This document shows, piece by piece, positions 46,153 to 63,773 of a stretch of 64,000 nt of DNA. A program made the translations under genes and the position numbers. The stretch's first letter is position 1. Every line of letters begins with the position of its first letter. The DNA is from Streptomyces sp. NBC_00525 (lineage in GTDB: Bacteria > Actinomycetota > Actinomycetes > Streptomycetales > Streptomycetaceae): contig NZ_CP107834.1 of NCBI RefSeq assembly GCF_036346595.1, positions 4,526,001-4,590,000 on the forward strand, in the 5' to 3' direction. The notes beneath the pieces are model-generated. The model searched no databases. It saw only the letters and a program-made list of their open reading frames with translations, and had not been told where the DNA came from.

Positions 46153-47016
46153 GTGCGCATCGATCTGCACACCCACTCCACCGCGTCGGACGGCACGGAC
46201 ACCCCCGCCGAACTGGTCCGCGGCGCCGCGGCCGCGGGCCTCGACGTCGTCGCCCTCACCGACCACGACACGGTGCGCGGGCACGCCGAGGCCGTCGCCG
46301 CCCTGCCCGAGGGGCTCACGCTCGTCACGGGCGCCGAGCTGTCCTGCCGCATCGACGGCGTGGGCCTGCACATGCTGGCGTACCTCTTCGACCCGGACGA
46401 GCCCGAGTTCGCCCGCGAGCGCGAACTGGTGCGCGACGACCGGGTGCCCCGCGCCCGCACCATGGTCCGCAAGCTCCAGGAGCTGGGCGTGCCCGTCACC
46501 TGGGAGCAGGTGGCCCGCATCGCGGGCGACGGCTCGGTCGGCCGGCCGCACGTCGCCACCGCCCTGGTCGAACTGGGCGTCGTCCCGACCGTGTCCGACG
46601 CCTTCACGTCCGACTGGCTCGGCGACGGCGGGCGCGCCTACGCCGAGAAGCACGAACTGGACCCGTTCGACGCGATCCGGCTCGTCAAGGCCGCCGGCGG
46701 CGTCACCGTCTTCGCCCACCCGGCCGCCGTCAAACGCGGCCGTACGGTCCCCGAGGCGCGGATCGCCGAACTGGCCGCCGCCGGTCTCGACGGCATCGAG
46801 GTGGACCACATGGACCACGACGAGCCGACCCGCACCCGGCTGCGCGCGCTCGCCGGTGAACTCGGCCTGCTGACGACCGGCTCCAGCGACTACCACGGCA
46901 GCCGCAAGACCGTCGCCCTCGGCGCGTACACCACCGACCCCGAGATCTACGGCGAGATCACCCGGCGCGCCACGGGAGCCTTCCCGGTGCCGGGCGCCGG
47001 AGGACCCACCGCGTAA
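46153..47016 (+). CDS. PHP-domain phosphoesterase
   Basis: A 287-residue polymerase-and-histidinol-phosphatase domain protein. The metal-binding motifs are HTHS with SDG at the N-terminus (DLHTHSTASDGTDTP), LTDHDTV, GAELSC, FAHPAA and the late SSDYHG. Characterised relatives (TrpH/RNase AM, YciV type) hydrolyse 3',5'-nucleotide bisphosphates or short 5' RNA ends. The start is GTG 46153, with GGAG about 9 bases before it. It is followed on the same strand by a MarC-family gene at 145 bases. The substrate is uncertain. Confidence 0.87.
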   Translation: MRIDLHTHSTASDGTDTPAELVRGAAAAGLDVVALTDHDTVRGHAEAVAALPEGLTLVTGAELSCRIDGVGLHMLAYLFDPDEPEFARERELVRDDRVPRARTMVRKLQELGVPVTWEQVARIAGDGSVGRPHVATALVELGVVPTVSDAFTSDWLGDGGRAYAEKHELDPFDAIRLVKAAGGVTVFAHPAAVKRGRTVPEARIAELAAAGLDGIEVDHMDHDEPTRTRLRALAGELGLLTTGSSDYHGSRKTVALGAYTTDPEIYGEITRRATGAFPVPGAGGPTA

Positions 47017-55141: not shown

Positions 55142-56107
55142 ATGTCTTCGACCGAGCTGCCGGGAATCAGCGCCGCCGCCGCAGCGGTGGCCCCCACGGT
55201 GAGCACCGTCAGGGTCGCGGAGGGGGAGCGGCTGCGCTCCGTCGAGCTGCCCGGTCTGACGCTCACGCTCCGTTCCCGCCCGCCCCGGCGCTCCGGACTG
55301 CCGCCCGCCCTCTTCGTGCACGGGCTCGGCGGTTCCTCGCAGAACTGGACGGCGCTGATGCCGCTCCTGGACGACGTGGTGGACTGCGAGGCGGTGGACC
55401 TGCCCGGCTTCGGGGACTCGCCACCCCCGGACGACGGCAACTACTCCGTCACCGGGCACGCCCGCGCGGTGATCCGGCTCCTCGACGCGCAGGAGCGCGG
55501 CCCGGTCCATCTGTTCGGCAACTCGCTGGGCGGCGCGGTGGCGACCCGGGTCGCCGCGGTCCGCCCCGACCTCGTCCGCACGCTCACCCTGGTCTCGCCC
55601 GCGCTCCCCGAGATCCGGGTCCAGCGCACGGCCGCCCCTACCGCGCTCCTCGCACTGCCGGGCGTCGCATCCCTGTTCGCCCGGCTCACCCGTGACTGGA
55701 GCGCCGAGGACCGCACCCGCGGAGTCATGGCACTCTGTTACGGCGATCCGGCACGGGTCTCCGAGAAGGGCTTCCGCGACGCGGTGGCCGAAATGGAGCG
55801 CCGGCTGGAGCTGCCGTACTTCTGGGACGCCATGGCGCGTTCCGCCCGTGGGATCGTCGACGCGTACACGCTGGGCGGACAGCAGGGGCTGTGGCGCCAG
55901 GCCGAGCGGGTGCTCGCGCCGACCCAGCTGGTGTACGGCGGACGGGACCGGCTCGTCTCGTTCCGGATGGCCCGCAGGGCGTCCGCGGCCTTCCGCGACG
56001 CGCGCCTGCTGACACTGCCCGACGCCGGGCACGTGGCGATGATGGAGTACCCGGAGGCGGTTGCCCAGGCGTTCCGGGAATTGCTCGACGAATGCGGCGG
56101 GAGCTGA
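55142..56107 (+). CDS. Alpha/beta hydrolase
   Basis: A 321-residue alpha/beta hydrolase. The HGLGGSSQNW segment gives the oxyanion hole, the nucleophile is in FGNSLGGAVATR, the acid is probably in YGGRDRLVSF and the histidine in DAGHVAMMEYP. This layout fits the meta-cleavage/haloperoxidase-like part of the superfamily; no substrate can be named. TAACAT ends 7 bases before the ATG, so the message may be leaderless. The DUF3152 gene follows after 8 bases. Confidence 0.85.
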   Translation: MSSTELPGISAAAAAVAPTVSTVRVAEGERLRSVELPGLTLTLRSRPPRRSGLPPALFVHGLGGSSQNWTALMPLLDDVVDCEAVDLPGFGDSPPPDDGNYSVTGHARAVIRLLDAQERGPVHLFGNSLGGAVATRVAAVRPDLVRTLTLVSPALPEIRVQRTAAPTALLALPGVASLFARLTRDWSAEDRTRGVMALCYGDPARVSEKGFRDAVAEMERRLELPYFWDAMARSARGIVDAYTLGGQQGLWRQAERVLAPTQLVYGGRDRLVSFRMARRASAAFRDARLLTLPDAGHVAMMEYPEAVAQAFRELLDECGGS

Positions 56108-56115
56108 TCCAGGGC

Positions 56116-57402
56116 GTGGGACGACACAGTCGGAAGGGCCCCGGGCCCAGCGCGCCCGTGGCCGGGCAGGCGGAGACGAACGAGACGGGCCGCGCGGGCA
56201 CCGGAGCCACCCCCGGCACCGGACGCCGCAGACGCGCCGCCGGACCCGCCGCCGAATCCTTTCCGGGCACCCCCGAGGTCCGCGGCGGCCACCCCGAACA
56301 GCGCGAACCCGGCGGCGGCTGGGGTGCGGGGCCGATGAGCTCCGCAGGCACGCAGGCCCCGCCGCCCGGCCTCCGCCCCGGCGCCCCGCACCCCGCGCGC
56401 CACCCCCGGCCCGCCGGCGACCGGCCGCTCATACCGGGCCCGCGGCGCGAGTTCGTCGAGGCCTTCGACAGCCCGCCCGCCCCGCCCCGGCGCCCCGCAC
56501 CCGAGGACCCGTACCGCTCCGTCACCGAGTGGGACCCGCGCGAGCCGGAGGTCGTCCGGCGCGAAGGGGCGGCTGCCGTCAGGGCGGCCAGGGGCGCCAA
56601 GGGGCGCACGATCACCGGGATCGCCGCCGCCGCGGTGACCACCGTCCTCGCGGTCGTCGTGGCCGGCCAGGTCCCCCACGACCGCTCCACCGGCAACGAG
56701 ACCCCCAGCACCACGGGCGTCGACCGGGAGGACACCGACGACGCCTCACGCTCGGACGGGCGTACGACCCCGTCCCCCGAACCGGCGTCCGTCAAGCCCC
56801 TTACGTATGAACAGAAAATGGCCAAGGCCTACCCGCTCTCACCGGCGCTGACCGGCTCGGGCACCTTCGAGACCGTGCCAGGCACCGCCGAGGCGCCCGG
56901 CAAGGGGACCACGCACCGGTACCGCATCGACGTCGAGAAGGGCATCGGGCTCGACGCCGACCTGTTCGCCCAGGCCGTCCAGAGGACCCTCAACGACGAC
57001 CGCAGCTGGGCGCACGACGGCGACATGACCTTCGAGCGGATCTCCGAGGGCGAGCCGGACTTCGTCATCACCCTGGCCAGCCCCGGCACGACCGGAAAAT
57101 GGTGTGCCAAGTCGGGCCTGGACACCATGGAGGACAACGTCTCCTGCGACTCGGCCGCCACCGAGCGCGTGATGATCAACGCCTACCGCTGGGCCCAGGG
57201 CGCGGCCACCTTCGGACCGGAGAAGCTGTTCGCGTACCGGCAGATGCTCATCAACCACGAGGTAGGCCACCGGCTCGGCCACAACCACGCGAGTTGCGGC
57301 ACCGAGGGAGCCCTCGCGCCGGTCATGCAGCAGCAGACCAAGACGCTGGACCTCAACGGCGTCAAGTGCCGCCCCAACCCCTGGGTGTATCCGGAGGACT
57401 GA
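56116..57402 (+). CDS. DUF3152 protein with HExGHxxGHxH metalloprotease-like motif
   Basis: A 428-residue membrane protein. The first 160 residues are Pro/Gly/Arg-rich and cytoplasmic, then one membrane helix (about 165-186), and an outer DUF3152 domain of 180 residues. The motif NHEVGHRLGHNH begins with H381-E382 and has the metzincin form HExxHxxGxxH, so a zinc protease is likely although the family is named only by number. Four cysteines (GKWCAKSG, VSCDSAA, HASCGTE, GVKCRPN) may form disulfides. The mycobacterial counterpart is Rv3207c, next to moeB1/moeZ. GTG 56116 is my choice; ATG 56336 would give a shorter N-terminus. Confidence 0.85.
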   Translation: MGRHSRKGPGPSAPVAGQAETNETGRAGTGATPGTGRRRRAAGPAAESFPGTPEVRGGHPEQREPGGGWGAGPMSSAGTQAPPPGLRPGAPHPARHPRPAGDRPLIPGPRREFVEAFDSPPAPPRRPAPEDPYRSVTEWDPREPEVVRREGAAAVRAARGAKGRTITGIAAAAVTTVLAVVVAGQVPHDRSTGNETPSTTGVDREDTDDASRSDGRTTPSPEPASVKPLTYEQKMAKAYPLSPALTGSGTFETVPGTAEAPGKGTTHRYRIDVEKGIGLDADLFAQAVQRTLNDDRSWAHDGDMTFERISEGEPDFVITLASPGTTGKWCAKSGLDTMEDNVSCDSAATERVMINAYRWAQGAATFGPEKLFAYRQMLINHEVGHRLGHNHASCGTEGALAPVMQQQTKTLDLNGVKCRPNPWVYPED

Positions 57403-57530
57403 GCGCGGGCGCACACGGAGCACCGAGCGCCCCCGCACCGCTCCGCCCGTCACCCATTCGGTGACACCCCGCCTCCATAGCGCGACAGAACGCTACGGGG
57501 GCGCGAAAGTTACGCCGGTTCACCCCTTTC

Positions 57531-57564
57531 GGTGGCGCGACGGACAACCGTCCGTCGCGCCACC
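57531..57564 (+). terminator. Perfect 15-bp hairpin upstream of the glycosyltransferase operon
   Basis: GGTGGCGCGACGGAC, AACC, GTCCGTCGCGCCACC. Outer TACGCCGG (57511-57518) can also pair with CCGGCGTA (57563-57570). It is 130 bases past the DUF3152 stop and 80 bases before the GT4 gene. It may be a terminator, or an operator for the operon. Confidence 0.55.
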
Positions 57565-57642
57565 GGCGTATCCGCTTACGGTCGTCCCGCGAGTCGCCGA
57601 TCCAGCGGCGGCCGCGTCATACAGCAGATCGGGGGTGCGCTC

Positions 57643-59331
57643 GTGCGGATCGGACTGCTCACCGACGGTGGTTATCCGTACGCGACCGGTGAGTCCAGGC
57701 TCTGGTGCGACCGTCTGGTACGCGGGCTCGCCCAGCACGAGTTCGACCTCTTCGCACTCAGCCGCTCCGCCGAACAGGAGGCGCGCGGCTGGGTACGGCT
57801 CCCGGACCGGGTCCGCAGCGTACGCACCGCCCCCCTGTGGACCGCCGACGAGGAGACCCGCGCCCTGCACGCCCCCCGCGGCCCGCTGGCCCGGCTGCTC
57901 ACCGGCGGCGGCACCCACCGCTACGGCCGGCGCGAACAGCGCCTGTTCGCCACCCACTTCACGGACCTCGCCGCCGCCGTCTGCACCGCGGCCCCCCGCG
58001 TCGCGGACGAACGGTTCACGCGCGGCCTGAACGGCCTCGCCGACCTGGCCGCCGACCACGGCGGACTCCCCGCGGCGCTGCGCTCCGAGACGGCCGTCCG
58101 CATCCTGGAAGCCGCCTGCCGCGCCCCCGGCACCGGACGCACCGTGCAGACCGCCACCGTCGCCGACCTCCTCGCCTTCACCGGAGAACTGGACCGCGCG
58201 CTGCGCCCCCTCTCCCTCGACTGGTACGACGAGGACGGCCTCGCCGCCGTCGACCTCTGCCACGCCACGTCCGGCGGCACCGCCGCACTGCCGGGACTGC
58301 TGGCCAAACGCTTCTTCGGCACCCCGCTGCTGGTCACCGAGTACGCCGTACGCGTACGGGCGCACTACCTCGCATCCGGCGACGCCCCGGCCGGTGCGCC
58401 GGTGCGCGCCCTCCTCGCCGGGTTCCACGGACTGCTCGCCACCGAGGTCTACCGGCAGGCCGCGCTCATCACCCCCGGCAACACCCACGCCCGCCGCTGG
58501 CAGCAGCGCTGCGGCGCCGACCCCGCGAAGCTGCGCACCGTGTACCCCGGCATGGAGTCCGCCCGGTTCGACGCGCTCGGCGAGCGCGAGGACGACGGCG
58601 GCCCGGACACGCTCGTCTGGGTCGGCCGCATCGAGCCCGCCAAGGACCTGGTCACCCTGCTGCACGCCTTCGCCCGGGTACACGCCGCCGCCCCGGACAC
58701 CCGGCTGCGGATCATCGGCGCGCCCACCCCCGACCCGGCGGGCGCCGGCTGCCTGGAGCGCTGCCGCGCCGTGGCCGCCCGGCTGTTCCCCGACACGGAC
58801 GCGGTCACCTTCGAGGAGACCGGCGGGCCGGGCGTCCCCGATGTCGCCGACGCGTACGCGGCGGGCGGGGTAGTGGTGCTCTCCAGCGTCGTCGAGGGCT
58901 TCCCGATCAGCCTGGTCGAGGCGATGTTCTGCGGCCGGGCCACCGTCTCCACGGACGTCGGCGCGGTCGTCGAGGTCATCGGCGGCACCGGGCTCGTGGT
59001 CCCGCCGCGCAACCCGCGCGCCCTCGCGGACGCCTGCCTCGCGCTGCTGCGCGACCCCGCGCGCCGGGCCCGCCTCGGCGCGGCGGCGCGCGCCCGCGCA
59101 CTCGAACTCTTCACCGTCGAGCAGAACCTCACCGCGTTCGACGGGATCTACCTCGACCTGATCGCACGGGCGCCGCGACGCGACTGGGAGCCGCCGGCCG
59201 CCGACGAGGGCCCGCGCCCCTTCGCCACCCCGCCGGAGTTCCACATGCTGGACCACTGGCCGGACGGCGCCGACGGGGAGTGCGCCGACCGCGTCCCCAG
59301 CCGGGCGGGCGCCGGGAGCGCCCATGCCTGA
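57643..59331 (+). CDS. PelF-like (DUF3492) GT4-family glycosyltransferase
   Basis: A 562-residue retaining glycosyltransferase. The N-terminal DUF3492 domain starts VRIGLLTDGGYPYATGESRLWCDRLVRGL, a strong hallmark of PelF, and the GT4 domain has WVGRIEPAKDLVTLLHAFARV and the donor-site motif SSVVEGFPISLVEAMFCGRATVSTDVGAVVEVI with the E-x7-E pair. PelF polymerises the Pel exopolysaccharide from a UDP-sugar; the product here is unknown. GGGGGTG lies 5-9 bases before the GTG. It leads an operon with an 8-helix membrane protein, an epimerase and a spherulin-4-like protein. Confidence 0.88.
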   Translation: MRIGLLTDGGYPYATGESRLWCDRLVRGLAQHEFDLFALSRSAEQEARGWVRLPDRVRSVRTAPLWTADEETRALHAPRGPLARLLTGGGTHRYGRREQRLFATHFTDLAAAVCTAAPRVADERFTRGLNGLADLAADHGGLPAALRSETAVRILEAACRAPGTGRTVQTATVADLLAFTGELDRALRPLSLDWYDEDGLAAVDLCHATSGGTAALPGLLAKRFFGTPLLVTEYAVRVRAHYLASGDAPAGAPVRALLAGFHGLLATEVYRQAALITPGNTHARRWQQRCGADPAKLRTVYPGMESARFDALGEREDDGGPDTLVWVGRIEPAKDLVTLLHAFARVHAAAPDTRLRIIGAPTPDPAGAGCLERCRAVAARLFPDTDAVTFEETGGPGVPDVADAYAAGGVVVLSSVVEGFPISLVEAMFCGRATVSTDVGAVVEVIGGTGLVVPPRNPRALADACLALLRDPARRARLGAAARARALELFTVEQNLTAFDGIYLDLIARAPRRDWEPPAADEGPRPFATPPEFHMLDHWPDGADGECADRVPSRAGAGSAHA

Positions 59332-60562
59332 CCACGACACGGCGGGCCGCCCGGACGCGCCCGCGCGCGCCCCCGAGGTGGCACGCCCGGAGCGCCCCGC
59401 GCGCCCGGAGCGCCCCGCGTGCCCCGAGCACTCCGCGCGCGCCGCCCACCCGCGCCCCGTCCGCGCCGCCACCGCCCGCAAGGGCACCGCCGTCCGGCGG
59501 AACACCGCCGACCCGGTGCGCGCGCTCATGCGCCGCCACCGCGAGCTGTGCGAACGGGCCGTCGATCCGCTGGAGATCGCCGCCGGGCTCGAAGCGCACG
59601 GGGTCACCGACCGCACCGCCGCCCGCTACCGGCACCGCGACGTGTTCTCGCTCGCCGAGGAACTCTTCGCACGGGTGCCCGCCGTCCCACGGGAGCCCGC
59701 CGCGCCGGGGCCCGCTCCGGCGCGCGACGTCACCACGCGCGCCGCCTGGACCCTGCGCGCGCTGCTGCCCGGCGCCGCCTGCCTGGCGACCCTCCTCGCC
59801 CTGCGGCTCACCGAAGGGATGCTCGGCGGCGACGCCCGGCTCGCCCTCGGCTGCGGCGGCGCGCTGCTCACGCTGATCGCCTTACTCCTGGCCGTGCGCA
59901 CCGGCCCGCTCGGCGCCGCCCCCGCCGCCTCCGGCACCGGCACGCTCTGCGTCTGCTGGCTGCTCGGCTACGTCCTGTACGGCGACGCCCTGCTCCACCA
60001 GGTCCTCAGCGGCGGCCCCGAGGGCCCCTGGGACCTGACCCCGGCACCGCTGCCGGCGCTCGCCCTCGCGGTGGTGCCCGCCGCCTGGTGCGCCCACCTC
60101 TTCTCGCTGCACGCCCACCGCAGACTGCTCGGCTCCCACGCCCTGGAGGAGTTCGCGGCCGGCGCCCGCCCCCTGCTCTTCGGCGTCGTCGCGCTCTTCC
60201 TCGCCGCCCTGGCCGTCCTCCAGTACCTGACCGGTCCGGTGTTCGGGCACGGCGGGGCACCGGCCGGGGCCGCCGCCCTCGGGGTGCTGCTCCTGCTGGC
60301 CCGGCTGCTCACCGTGCACGGCTTCCCGGAACCGGCCGCCACCGGACTCGCCGCCGCCGTCGCGGTGGAGGCTGCCGCCCCGGCCCTGATCCTGGCCGGC
60401 CGGCTGCCCGGTCTCGACGCGGTGGCCCGCCCGGTCGAGGCGCTGATCGAGGCGGGCGGCACCGGGGCCGTCCCCGCGCTGGCCTGCGGCGCGGCCGCCC
60501 TCGGCCTGCTGATCACCGCCACCCTCGCCCTCGCCAGGGCGTCCGCCCACACCGCCCCCTGA
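59324..60562 (+). CDS. Eight-helix membrane protein of the PelF-like operon
   Basis: A 412-residue protein. The first 120 residues are cytoplasmic and Pro/Ala/Arg-rich, then a helical region (RRHRELCERAVDPLEIAAGLEAHGV), then about eight membrane helices from about 145 to 405. It overlaps the glycosyltransferase gene by 8 bases. Position suggests it exports or assembles the polymer, as PelG does in Pel systems, but it is shorter (PelG has about 12 helices) and I see no clear homology. A PelE/PelD-like partner role is also possible. Confidence 0.7.
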   Translation: MPDHDTAGRPDAPARAPEVARPERPARPERPACPEHSARAAHPRPVRAATARKGTAVRRNTADPVRALMRRHRELCERAVDPLEIAAGLEAHGVTDRTAARYRHRDVFSLAEELFARVPAVPREPAAPGPAPARDVTTRAAWTLRALLPGAACLATLLALRLTEGMLGGDARLALGCGGALLTLIALLLAVRTGPLGAAPAASGTGTLCVCWLLGYVLYGDALLHQVLSGGPEGPWDLTPAPLPALALAVVPAAWCAHLFSLHAHRRLLGSHALEEFAAGARPLLFGVVALFLAALAVLQYLTGPVFGHGGAPAGAAALGVLLLLARLLTVHGFPEPAATGLAAAVAVEAAAPALILAGRLPGLDAVARPVEALIEAGGTGAVPALACGAAALGLLITATLALARASAHTAP

Positions 60563-60666
60563 TGGGGCGGCCCCCGAACCCGTCCGCGGAGCCGACGCCG
60601 CGGACGCGTCCCACCCGAACCGTACGCATCGAACCGTACGGAACTGCCACAAGGAGACACACCGAC

Positions 60667-60732
60667 ATGACCCCCCAATCCCCCGCACCGGCAGCCCGCC
60701 GTCGGCCCCATGGCGGAGGCGGTGCGCGATGA
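60667..60732 (+). CDS. Possible 21-codon leader peptide upstream of the epimerase gene
   Basis: ATG ACC CCC CAA... to TGA: MTPQSPAPAARRRPHGGGGA then R. AAGGAG lies 10 bases before the ATG. The stop overlaps the epimerase ATG (ATGA), so its translation would be coupled to the epimerase. It is Pro/Arg/Gly-rich with no fold. It may be a leader or a remnant. Confidence 0.35.
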   Translation: MTPQSPAPAARRRPHGGGGAR

Positions 60733-61694
60733 GGGTGCTGCTGCTCGGAGCCAACGGATTCATCGGCCGGTTCGTGGCCGACCGGCTGCTCGCCGACCCC
60801 GCCGTCCACCTCACGGCACTCGGCCGCGGCGACGACGCCGACGTACGGTTCGACCTCGCGACCGGCAGCCCCGGAGCGCTCACCCGCTTCCTGGACGCCG
60901 TCCACCCCGGAGTCGTCGTCAACTGCGCCGGGGCGACCCGCGGCGGCGCCCGCGACCTGACCCGGCACAACACCGTCGCCGTCGCCACCGTCTGCGAGGC
61001 GATGCGGCGCAGCCGCTGCACCGCCCGGCTGGTCCAGGTCGGCTGCGCGTCGGAGTACGGCCCCTCCCAGCCCGGCTCCTCCACGGCGGAGGACGCCATC
61101 CCGCGCCCCGGCGGCCCGTACGGCGTCAGCAAGCTCGCCGCCACCGAGCTGGTCCTGGGCTCCGGCCTGGACGCGGTCGTGCTGCGGGTCTTCTCCCCGG
61201 TCGGCCCCGGCACCCCGGCGGGCTCCCCGCTCGGCCGGCTCGCCGAGGCGATGCGCCGCACCATGCAGTCCGGCGACGGCGAGCTGAAGCTCAGCGGCCT
61301 CGGCGTGCAGCGCGACTTCGTGGACGTACGCGATGTGGCGCGGGCGGTCCACGCCGCGTCCCTCTCCGCCGCGCAGGGCGTCGTCAACATCGGCACCGGG
61401 CGGGCCGTCCGGCTGCGGGACGCGGCGGCCGTCCTCGCCAAGGTCGCCGGATACGCCGGCGCGCTCCACGAGCTGGACACGCCCCCCGCCCGGCTGCCCA
61501 TCGGCGCCCCCCGGACCTCCGCCGAAGCGGTCATCGAGCACCTCTCGGCCACCCCGTCCCCGTACCCGGACGGCTGCGGCGCCTGGCAGCAGGCCGACGT
61601 CCGCACCGCCCGCGACCGGCTCGGCTGGCGCCCCCGGATCAACCTGGAGGAGTCGCTCGCCGACATCTGGATGGAGGCGGCGTGCCGTATCTGA
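60729..61694 (+). CDS. NAD-dependent nucleotide-sugar epimerase/dehydratase
   Basis: A 321-residue extended short-chain dehydrogenase. The Rossmann motif is GANGFIG, and the active site is Y131-x3-K135 in PYGVSKLAATEL. DVRDVARAVHAA and VVNIGTGRAVRLRDAAAVLA are typical of sugar-nucleotide epimerases. It probably makes or changes the UDP-sugar used by the PelF-like enzyme, as UDP-Glc/GlcNAc C4-epimerases do in Pel and GAG loci. GGCGGAGGCGG lies 4-14 bases before ATG 60729. It overlaps the spherulin-4-like gene by 13 bases. Confidence 0.87.
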   Translation: MRVLLLGANGFIGRFVADRLLADPAVHLTALGRGDDADVRFDLATGSPGALTRFLDAVHPGVVVNCAGATRGGARDLTRHNTVAVATVCEAMRRSRCTARLVQVGCASEYGPSQPGSSTAEDAIPRPGGPYGVSKLAATELVLGSGLDAVVLRVFSPVGPGTPAGSPLGRLAEAMRRTMQSGDGELKLSGLGVQRDFVDVRDVARAVHAASLSAAQGVVNIGTGRAVRLRDAAAVLAKVAGYAGALHELDTPPARLPIGAPRTSAEAVIEHLSATPSPYPDGCGAWQQADVRTARDRLGWRPRINLEESLADIWMEAACRI

Positions 61695-62509
61695 CCCGGC
61701 CCGGCACCGCCCGGTGCCCCGCCGGCACCGGCGGGCCGGGCCTCGGGATTCCCGGCTACGCGCACCCGCTGCTCGCCCCGGCCGAGTGGGCCGAGCTGAC
61801 CCGCCCCGGCACCCCGCTGCACTGGGCGGTCCTGGACATCGACAACGGCCCCGGCAGCAGGCCCGACCCGCACTGCCTGGAGGTGGCGGGCAGGCTGCGC
61901 AACGCCCGCGCCCGCGCGCTGCACGGCGCGGAGCCGCTGGACACCGTCCGGGCGGCGGGCGGCCGGCTGCTCGGCAGGCTCGACCTCGCGCACGGCGTGC
62001 GGCTCTTCGCGGAGCTGCTCGCCGACGCCCGGTCCTTCCTGGACTGGTACCGGGTGGACGGCTTCTACCTGGACCGCTGCCCGTCCGACCGGGGCGAGCT
62101 GCCCGGTGTCCGCCGCCTCACCGGCACCCTGCGGGCGCTGCTGGGGACGGACGGCGGGCATCTCGTGCTGGGGCACGACACCCACCCGTACCCCGGCTAC
62201 GCCGAGACGGGCGACCAGCTCGTCACGTTCCGGGGGGCGTGGAGCGACTACCGCTGGTCGCAGGTGGCGGAGTGGACCGCCGCCTACCCGCCGGAAAGGT
62301 TCGCCCACCTCGTGCACGGCGTTCCGCGCACCCATCTGGAGGAGGCGATGCGCATCGCCCGCTGGCAGGGCGCGGCCACGATCTTCTTCACCGACCGGGG
62401 CGGCGCCCCTGGCCCCGGAAACGGGCGTGGACAAACCGATCCATTCGCGACACTGCCCAAGTACTGGGACGAAATTGTCTCGCGGATCGGACCCGGTCTC
62501 TTGGAATGA
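61682..62509 (+). CDS. Spherulation-specific family 4 (GH135-like) protein
   Basis: A 275-residue TIM-barrel protein of the spherulin-4 family (PF12138). Readable parts are GLGIPGYAHPLLAPAEWAEL, HWAVLDIDNGPGSRPD, GRLDLAHGVR, YRVDGFYLDRCP and LVTFRGAWSDYR. The fungal relative Sph3 is an endo-alpha-1,4-N-acetylgalactosaminidase (GH135). Where the fungal family has Asp-Glu at the catalytic point, this one has D131-R132, so activity may differ or be absent. No signal peptide is evident with GTG 61682, so it is probably cytosolic unless exported by another path. It is the last gene of the operon. Confidence 0.85.
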   Translation: MPYLTRPGTARCPAGTGGPGLGIPGYAHPLLAPAEWAELTRPGTPLHWAVLDIDNGPGSRPDPHCLEVAGRLRNARARALHGAEPLDTVRAAGGRLLGRLDLAHGVRLFAELLADARSFLDWYRVDGFYLDRCPSDRGELPGVRRLTGTLRALLGTDGGHLVLGHDTHPYPGYAETGDQLVTFRGAWSDYRWSQVAEWTAAYPPERFAHLVHGVPRTHLEEAMRIARWQGAATIFFTDRGGAPGPGNGRGQTDPFATLPKYWDEIVSRIGPGLLE

Positions 62510-62594: not shown

Positions 62595-63773
62595 GTGTCG
62601 CTGCCACCCCTGGTCGAGCCAGCTGCTGAGCTCACCGTCGACGAGGTCCGCAGGTACTCCCGCCACCTGATCATCCCGGACGTCGGGATGGACGGGCAGA
62701 AGCGGCTGAAGAATTCGAAGGTGCTCTGTGTCGGCGCCGGCGGCCTCGGCTCGCCGGCCCTGATGTACATGGCCGCCGCCGGTGTCGGCACGCTCGGCAT
62801 CGTCGAGTTCGACGAGGTCGACGAGTCGAACCTGCAGCGCCAGGTCATCCACAGCCAGGGTGACATCGGCAAGTCGAAGGCGCTGTCGGCCAAGGAGACC
62901 GTCCAGGGCATCAACCCCCTGGTCGAGGTGGTCCTTCACGAGGAGCGGCTCGAGGCCGACAACGTGATGGACATCTTCTCCCAGTACGACCTGATCGTGG
63001 ACGGCACGGACAACTTCGCCACCCGCTATCTCGTCAACGACGCCGCGGTGCTGCTGAACAAGCCCTACATCTGGGGTTCGATCTACCGCTTCGACGGCCA
63101 GGCGTCCGTGTTCTGGTCGGAGCACGGTCCCTGCTACCGCTGCCTCTACCCGGAGCCGCCCCCGCCGGGCATGGTTCCGTCCTGCGCCGAGGGCGGCGTC
63201 CTCGGCGTCCTCTGCGCCTCCGTGGGCTCGATCCAGGTCAACGAGGCCATCAAGCTGCTCGCCGGCATCGGCGACCCGCTCGTCGGCCGACTGATGATCT
63301 ACGACGCCCTGGAGATGCAGTACCGCCAGGTCAAGATCCGCAAGGACCCCAACTGCGCGGTCTGCGGCGAGAACCCCACCGTCACCGAGCTCATCGACTA
63401 CGAGGCCTTCTGCGGCGTCGTGTCCGATGAGGCCCAGGAGGCGGCGGCCGGTTCCACGATCACTCCCAAGCAGCTCAAGGAGTGGATCGACGCCGACGAG
63501 AAGATCGAGATCATCGACGTCCGCGAGCCGAACGAGTACGAGATCGTGTCGATCCCGGGCTCCCGGCTCATCCCGAAGAACGAGTTCCTGATGGGCACCG
63601 CCCTCCAGGACCTCCCGCAGGACAAGCGCATCGTCTTGAACTGCAAGACGGGTGTCCGCAGTGCGGAAGTTCTGGCGGTCCTCAAGTCGGCGGGCTTCGC
63701 CGACGCGGTCCACCTGGGCGGCGGTGTCGTCGGCTGGGTCAACCAGATCGAGCCCGAGAAGCCGATCTACTAG
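62595..63773 (+). CDS. moeZ: Adenylyltransferase/sulfurtransferase MoeZ
   Basis: A 392-residue fusion enzyme. The N-terminal ThiF/MoeB E1-like domain has the nucleotide motif GAGGLGSP (from G47) and two zinc pairs, C180-x2-C183 and C254-x2-C257. The C-terminal rhodanese domain has the active-site cysteine C350 in NCKTGVRSAE. It activates and thiolates small sulfur-carrier proteins (ThiS, MoaD, CysO-like), serving thiamine, molybdopterin and cysteine synthesis, and in some actinomycetes sulfur-containing antibiotics. GAGG lies 6 bases before the GTG. It is probably transcribed on its own; a strong terminator follows. The mycobacterial counterpart is Rv3206c. Confidence 0.95.
   Translation: MSLPPLVEPAAELTVDEVRRYSRHLIIPDVGMDGQKRLKNSKVLCVGAGGLGSPALMYMAAAGVGTLGIVEFDEVDESNLQRQVIHSQGDIGKSKALSAKETVQGINPLVEVVLHEERLEADNVMDIFSQYDLIVDGTDNFATRYLVNDAAVLLNKPYIWGSIYRFDGQASVFWSEHGPCYRCLYPEPPPPGMVPSCAEGGVLGVLCASVGSIQVNEAIKLLAGIGDPLVGRLMIYDALEMQYRQVKIRKDPNCAVCGENPTVTELIDYEAFCGVVSDEAQEAAAGSTITPKQLKEWIDADEKIEIIDVREPNEYEIVSIPGSRLIPKNEFLMGTALQDLPQDKRIVLNCKTGVRSAEVLAVLKSAGFADAVHLGGGVVGWVNQIEPEKPIY

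Follow-up and report, generated by a model that had tools for sequence, protein, structure and literature searches.

A candidate deacetylase-free GAG/Pel-like surface-glycan locus, near-core in Streptomyces

We analyzed a 64,000-nucleotide (nt) stretch of Streptomyces sp. NBC_00525 (the window; contig NZ_CP107834.1, positions 4,526,001 to 4,590,000) that carries, at 57643..62509, four genes encoding a glycosyltransferase (GT), a membrane protein, a short-chain dehydrogenase/reductase (SDR) and a spherulin-4 protein. In our estimation the chances are about even that this locus is a Streptomycetaceae-core, deacetylase-free paralogue of the galactosaminogalactan (GAG) and Pel systems, namely a synthase under developmental control whose product is a surface glycan of the late mycelium that is not deacetylated. 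Genes of the SCO5174-5177 type are conserved across Streptomyces and, in S. coelicolor, rank with the most strongly late-mycelial of the genes that lack an assigned function; their placement near GAG and Pel gives an orphan operon a testable hypothesis. All four genes were found where a first-pass annotation, which had proposed a Pel- or GAG-like operon, had located them; we identify their products as a DUF3492 GT, a membrane protein, an SDR and a spherulin-4 protein.

The GT groups with PelF-type enzymes

The GT gene (57643..59331, + strand) encodes a GT4 enzyme with an EX7E motif that matched PF11997 (DUF3492) at 86.3 bits (cut-off, 23.3) and the NCBIfam PelF model NF038011 at 104.2 bits, marginally over the cut-off of 100. 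Among Streptomyces GTs, the first glutamate of the motif was present in 74 of 78 sequences and the second in all 78. In a phylogenetic tree computed with the long-branched rows F_L160, A_L109 and F_L159 excluded, 36 DUF3492 rows separated (support 99/95) from the genome's 10 other GT4 enzymes. The GT thus clusters with PelF-type DUF3492 enzymes and does not fall in a non-PelF clade, in agreement with the first-pass annotation. Another tree separated the GTs of the window kind (type A), together with those from loci of other genera, from the GTs of two related kinds of cluster, types B and C (100/99, 100/98). The nearest relatives of the window GT were the GTs of these sister clusters, which bear CE18-like and GH114 genes, and it was distant from two PelF proteins partnered by PelG (branch 3.38).

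A fuller GAG-like cluster is present in the same genome

A genome search revealed a further DUF3492 gene in the vicinity of a spherulin-4 gene, at a distance of 0.83 Mb from the window locus. This sister cluster (L004, G000:C1:5417621-5427430, minus strand), which defines type B, encodes in order an 821-amino-acid (aa) secreted CE18-like protein, a PelF-family GT (168.8 bits), a 488-aa membrane protein, a LegB-like 4,6-dehydratase (454.3 bits of 475), a sugar-1-phosphate nucleotidyltransferase, an SDR and a spherulin carrying both catalytic residues, and is followed by a GH114 gene (C1:5417621-5418274). The trio of dehydratase, nucleotidyltransferase and SDR suggests a 6-deoxy-hexosamine pathway rather than plain N-acetylgalactosamine (GalNAc). 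In type C loci, gene calls on the fetched sequences gave a CE18-like protein, a GT, a membrane protein and a spherulin, with no sugar-nucleotide genes.

The CE18-like protein of L004 matched Agd3_CE weakly (E = 0.0008, 18.9 bits; cut-off, 27.6). Among 11 CE18-like homologues, 8 matched Agd3_CE at E ≤ 0.01 (best, 2.5e-6) and 3 matched CBM87; neither the single sequence nor the profile found the solved Agd3 structure. We make the assignment as a putative CE18-like deacetylase with modest confidence.

The four genes of the window and the seven of L004 share the relative order GT, membrane protein, SDR and spherulin, with identities of 43% for the GT, 42% for the SDR and 38% for the spherulin. Judged from these sequences, the window locus is a reduced paralogue of the L004 cluster. 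Because DUF3492 and spherulin-4 are paired again elsewhere in the genome in the same relative order, and moeZ followed the spherulin gene in 80 of the 80 loci fetched with the spherulin query, the grouping of these genes goes beyond chance. The annotation had also drawn a link to the Aspergillus GAG gene set, and this link is real since the genome carries a fuller GAG-like cluster elsewhere, of a kind that Bamford et al. reported in Actinobacteria.

Indeed, actinobacterial Agd3 (CE18) operons including spherulin-4 and GH114 are described by Bamford et al. 2020 (PMC7229062), so types B and C are known in kind, and L004, with its GH114, fits that description. As described there, these operons combine a cytoplasmic GT with a multi-spanning membrane protein and sometimes spherulin-4, as the window locus does. 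In contrast to them, the window locus has neither a deacetylase nor a GH114 gene, and its spherulin has no catalytic glutamate. No Agd3-type deacetylase was found among the four genes or in the scanned flanks, and the two Ega3-type GH114 genes of the genome, one of them beside L004, lie outside the locus. The annotation had noted the missing PelA-type deacetylase and called the locus a distinct, reduced form, which our data bear out.

The Aspergillus GAG cluster (Uge3, Gtb3, Sph3, Ega3, Agd3) likewise combines an SDR enzyme with an Sph3-fold protein; the likeness of Gtb3 to PelF-like GTs is given here on the account of the first-pass annotation. Unlike that cluster, the window locus lacks Agd3 and Ega3, its GT and membrane part are separate proteins, and its spherulin is predicted to be inactive and cytoplasmic. 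With Gram-positive Pel loci as described (pelDEADAFG; PMC7112168) the window locus has the PelF-family GT in common, but none of its four genes encodes PelG, PelD, PelE or PelADA.

Of 246 sampled actinobacteria, 2 had a PelG above its cut-off; the sample included 8 Streptomyces, all without such a match. The loci of these two (L152 and L153, in genomes G160 and G131) bring together genes for PelF, PelG, a CE18-like protein and a spherulin-4 that is exported and catalytically complete by its residues, and they link bacterial Pel to the gene set for GAG in fungi.

The spherulin is a predicted cytoplasmic pseudo-hydrolase

The spherulin gene (61682..62509, + strand) encodes a protein of the GH135 fold without a signal peptide that matched PF12138 at 49.2 bits (cut-off, 30.2). 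A profile built from the spherulins of types A to C (A1) found the Sph3 structures 5c5g and 5d6t (E = 2e-21), which the window spherulin as a single-sequence query did not find. Residues were mapped by counting along the profile alignment, with a chain offset of 32: Asp166, Glu167 and Glu222 of Sph3 correspond to Asp131, Arg132 and Arg184 of the window protein. In GH135, the aspartate is the nucleophile and Glu222 the acid/base (PMC12054363, which prints Asp196 for Sph3, read here as Asp166), and the D166A variant of Sph3 serves as an inactive form (PMC8546845).

We then compared 93 of the 94 type A spherulins, one partial sequence being dropped. None of the 93 had a glutamate at the acid/base position. 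In the 90 sequences from Streptomyces this position held R (37), S (30), Q (15), A (4), C (2), N (1) or T (1), and in those from other genera S, A or L. The nucleophile position was Asp in 58 of the 90, Ala or Gly in 31 and X in 1. Furthermore, no hydrophobic N terminus was detected in the 93 proteins, with a maximal score of 1.21 versus 2.09 for a secreted CE18-like positive control. The type A spherulins are nevertheless under purifying selection, with a median ratio of nonsynonymous to synonymous substitution rates (dN/dS; 10 pairs per gene) of about 0.32, and of 0.26 for pairs that lack the aspartate as well. We conclude from these data that the type A spherulin is probably a cytoplasmic pseudo-hydrolase. 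The GH135-like protein of the first-pass annotation is thus upheld as to fold family but not as to catalysis.

The spherulins of types B and C, in which the residues were found by pattern, had the glutamate in 21 of 21 sequences and the aspartate in 18 of 18; the residue after the aspartate is Gln or Arg. They likewise have no signal peptide. Those of the PelG-bearing loci L152 and L153 have a hydrophobic N terminus and retain both the Asp-Glu pair and the catalytic glutamate. Bacterial spherulin-4 proteins can therefore be arranged in three stages: exported with the full set (L152, L153), not exported by a signal peptide yet retaining Asp and Glu (sister clusters), and devoid of the glutamate (type A).

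The SDR and a small upstream open reading frame

The SDR gene (60729..61694, + strand) encodes a nucleotide-sugar oxidoreductase of family PF01370 (127.3 bits) in which the NAD motif, the tyrosine and the lysine are kept and the usual catalytic Ser/Thr position is a cysteine. For the residue counts, GT, membrane protein and SDR sequences were kept if they covered at least 80% of the query and contained no stops (87/91, 88/94 and 103/103, respectively). Among type A SDRs of Streptomyces, cysteine was found in all 92 sequences with a letter at the Ser/Thr position, tyrosine in 92 of 93 and lysine in all 92 with a letter; in 10 SDRs from other genera, the Ser/Thr position was Cys in five and Ser in five. 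The protein scored below every NCBIfam cut-off (galE, 36.9 bits versus 262.3), and its best solved relatives were GDP-4-keto-6-deoxy-hexose reductases, followed by UDP-glucose 4-epimerases. By homology, the SDR appears nearest to 4-ketoreductases. As for the nucleotide-sugar epimerase proposed earlier, the scores, the best relatives and the cysteine do not clearly make the protein one. The SDR is also the most constrained of the four genes, with a median dN/dS of 0.046 versus 0.16 for moeZ, and identities of 0.91 and 0.94, respectively. The corresponding dN/dS medians were about 0.35 for the GT and 0.47 for the membrane protein.

The four genes had been described as tightly coupled. This is true of the GT and membrane protein genes, which overlap by 8 nt, and of the SDR and spherulin genes, which overlap by 13 nt, but the membrane protein and SDR genes are 166 nt apart. 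This gap contains a conserved 21-codon open reading frame (ORF) with a ribosome-binding site (MTPQSPAPAARRRPHGGGGAR; 60667..60732, + strand), whose stop codon overlaps the SDR start (ATGA). A small ORF of 17 to 21 codons overlapping the SDR start was found in 93 of 103 loci, most commonly with 19 or 17 codons, and length changes among close relatives preserved the frame.

The membrane protein resembles that of the sister cluster

The membrane protein (59324..60562, + strand) is polytopic, with several strongly hydrophobic segments by hydropathy, where the first-pass annotation had counted eight helices, and a conserved soluble N-terminal domain. It matched no Pfam family. Profiles of the window-type and sister-cluster membrane proteins matched each other with a probability of 99.0 (E = 5.5e-18) and are homologous across their length, the window protein being the shorter homologue, with 40% identity over the N-terminal 72 residues. 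L111 was left out of the membrane protein alignment because its translation contains a stop. PelG was considered as an identity for this protein and rejected at the sequence and profile level: besides the missing Pfam match, the sister-cluster profile gave a probability of 0.1 against two PelG proteins.

A conserved leader precedes the GT gene

Immediately 5' of the GT gene lies a conserved leader element (model R1, 141 positions; 57502..57640, + strand). Of 121 Streptomyces genomes, 115 gave a match at E ≤ 0.01; in 113 of these E was ≤ 6e-6, and the two weak matches were in G085 and G117. There was usually one full-length match per genome, and in 67 of the 79 loci compared the element and the GT start were 2 nt apart. 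Its mean pairwise nucleotide identity was 0.92, versus 0.81 for the GT coding sequence; a leader better conserved than its gene offers a handle on how the operon is switched on. The element was absent from 25 of 25 type B/C loci (E ≤ 1). Of the 10 loci of other genera 4 had it, and it was retained in three Streptomyces loci that have lost the GT (L107, L108 and L149).

The leader contains a 16-bp hairpin with the loop AACC (57530..57565, + strand), whose fold z-score was -5.35, a value reached by 0 of 200 shuffles. Over 89 distinct sequences, 97.0% of the cells of the stem were paired, and four pairs were changed on both sides, in 46 such cells; this alignment was fitted to the model, and an independent first alignment gave three pairs and 98.9% pairing. 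None of 500 stem shuffles reached the observed pairing, cells or score, 15 reached the number of pairs, and slid versions of the stem paired at 25 to 58%. An RNA predicts one-sided stem changes to G-U over A-C. The inner stem pairs showed 37 G-U, 17 A-C and 10 other cells with one-sided changes, and over 39 distinct stem forms there were 24 G-U and 16 A-C changes. The evidence leans toward a leader that acts as RNA, a palindromic DNA site being possible.

We also considered that the leader might belong to the coding region of the GT. In 69 of 77 loci no stop codon interrupts the GT frame as far back as the hairpin and through it, and this taken alone is compatible with a coding role; however, hairpin-to-GT distances fall in all three frames (51, 19 and 7 loci) and the stem covaries, and a conserved coding role was thus rejected. 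An Rfam scan of the window gave no gathering-level matches, the best on the leader stretch reaching E = 0.024 and 16.8 bits against a gathering score of 162. A promoter and terminator scan, which covers sigma-70-type sites only, found nothing. The epsC motif, a leader RNA of Bacillus exopolysaccharide genes (PMC2864571), is likewise a conserved structured element 5' of glycan genes; compared by the Rfam scan only, it gave no gathering-level match to the window leader, whose own action as RNA is putative. Within the literature that was searched, there was no description of the leader and no locus of the window type named Pel- or GAG-like. Separately, an inverted repeat (TAGCG-N8-CGCTA, 57477-57495) lies 5' of the leader and is kept in many close relatives; it could be an operator.

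Type A loci are near-core in Streptomyces

The spherulin query returned at least 545 related stretches in the genome collection. Eighty type A loci were kept, all titled Streptomyces but one, "[Kitasatospora] papulosa". Of 121 sampled Streptomyces genomes, 108 had a GT of the window type at ≥54% identity (some partial) and 114 had a spherulin match, of which 113 were type A by identity as read from the match list, fragments included. In the family sample, 112 of 121 genomes, representing 15 of 17 genera, had an SDR match at E ≤ 1e-60. Type A is near-core in Streptomyces, beside moeZ. In 51 of the 121 genomes the type A spherulin was the only spherulin match, indicating that type A is independent of types B and C and does not regularly travel with a deacetylase cluster. 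The 10 loci of other genera had the order GT, membrane protein, SDR and moeZ, with the SDR in 10, the GT in 9 and a spherulin in 3. Across the 246 sampled actinobacteria, spherulin was present in 10 genomes (8 of them Streptomyces) and DUF3492 in 16, and all 10 were among the 16.

Counterparts in S. coelicolor

SCO5178 is named moeB in work on NdgR (PMC4340878), and by position SCO5174-5177 are thus the type A genes. SCO5174 is listed as a putative glycosyltransferase, filed with cell-envelope glycosyltransferases, and its mutants make less actinorhodin (PMC6585502). Table 3 of PMC3610822 gives log2 changes of +3.5, +3.8 and +3.3 for SCO5174, SCO5175 and SCO5177 at 48 h in MII versus MI, within a range of +2.2 to +3.8 for these three genes; at 48 h all three are thus raised more than 8-fold in the late mycelium. 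SCO5176 is unlisted in that table. The SCO locus numbers of the operon had no match in PMC2422843.

Proposed function and alternatives

In the explanation to which we give even chances, the GT and its membrane partner would polymerize a sugar of the N-acetyl-hexosamine type at the membrane and pass the polymer out, and the SDR would make or tune the nucleotide-sugar donor. The spherulin, having lost its catalytic residues, would not cut; it would remain cytoplasmic, serving as a subunit that binds glycan or regulates the synthase. As the locus contains no deacetylase, its product would be neutral. Expression of the counterparts assigned by gene order in S. coelicolor is developmental, and the conserved leader may set that of the operon. 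A more detailed version, which we offer as a tentative possibility, would add to this core, developmentally induced synthase its own leader (a new structured-RNA or palindromic-operator family with one site per genome), a cytoplasmic pseudo-glycosidase that reads the polymer and gates the synthase, a peptide of 17 to 21 residues, coupled to the SDR, acting as regulator or subunit, and an undescribed uncharged glycan of aerial hyphae or spores.

Several observations weigh against the synthase explanation. The spherulin is dispensable, since four Streptomyces loci (L109, L110, L111 and L113) keep the GT, membrane protein and SDR genes without it. Conversely, L107, L108 and L149 have a full-length SDR, the spherulin and the leader, and their GT and membrane protein genes are missing or cut short; together with the much stronger constraint on the SDR than on the GT, this hints at a role of the SDR outside the synthase. 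No exporter homology is recognizable by sequence in the membrane protein. Finally, SCO5174-5177 are assigned as type A genes by gene order only.

The same genes could instead glycosylate a carrier. GT4 enzymes often add one or few sugars to cell-envelope carriers, and here the acceptor might be a teichoic-type polymer, a glycolipid or a protein, with the membrane protein as acceptor-side partner and no polymer formed. The membrane protein does not reach the length of its counterparts in the sister clusters and is unlike PelG, and the GT evolves fast (dN/dS about 0.35), as acceptor-matching enzymes may do. However, the closest relatives of the GT sit in CE18-like/GH114-bearing clusters that look like polymer systems, and we regard this alternative as rather unlikely. 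We judge improbable the proposal of the first-pass annotation, a cationic GalNAc-type Pel/GAG-like polymer made by four genes and trimmed by the spherulin. A PelF-family GT and spherulin-4 do occur together, the 10 actinobacterial genomes with spherulin (8 Streptomyces) are all among the 16 with DUF3492, and where a genome has a cluster of the L004 type, a deacetylase could come from it in trans. Nevertheless, a cationic polymer requires a deacetylase, which the locus lacks, and with 51 of 121 genomes having the type A spherulin only, the cationic product finds no support. Nor is the same set of activities as in GAG or Pel supported, since the acid/base glutamate is missing in 93 of 93 type A spherulins, the SDR, nearest to 4-ketoreductases, is not clearly an epimerase, and the membrane protein is not PelG-like by sequence.

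Slightly less probable still, in our view, is a separate module of SDR and spherulin, linked to moeZ and to a function related to thiols or sulfur, with the GT pair as an add-on. This would fit the conservation of the SDR (identity 0.91, dN/dS 0.046), which is near or below that of moeZ (0.94, 0.16), its cysteine in all 92 Streptomyces sequences with a letter there, and its retention where the GT and membrane protein are lost. But the pairing of SDR and GT predates the spherulin, as the 10 loci of other genera indicate (SDR in 10, GT in 9, spherulin in 3), and the cysteine is not universal, serine being found in 5 of those 10 SDRs.

Neighbouring features

The linked neighbour moeZ (62595..63773, + strand; PRK07878, 743 bits) lies 3' of the spherulin gene and is not counted in the pathway. 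ARAGORN called a tRNA-Ala (cgc) at 46179-46274 on the minus strand; at 96 nt it is long for its type, it has no gathering-level match in Rfam, and it is possibly a false positive. Upstream of the operon, at 55891-57402, lies a gene for a DUF3152 protein, which is a neighbour in many of the fetched type A loci too.

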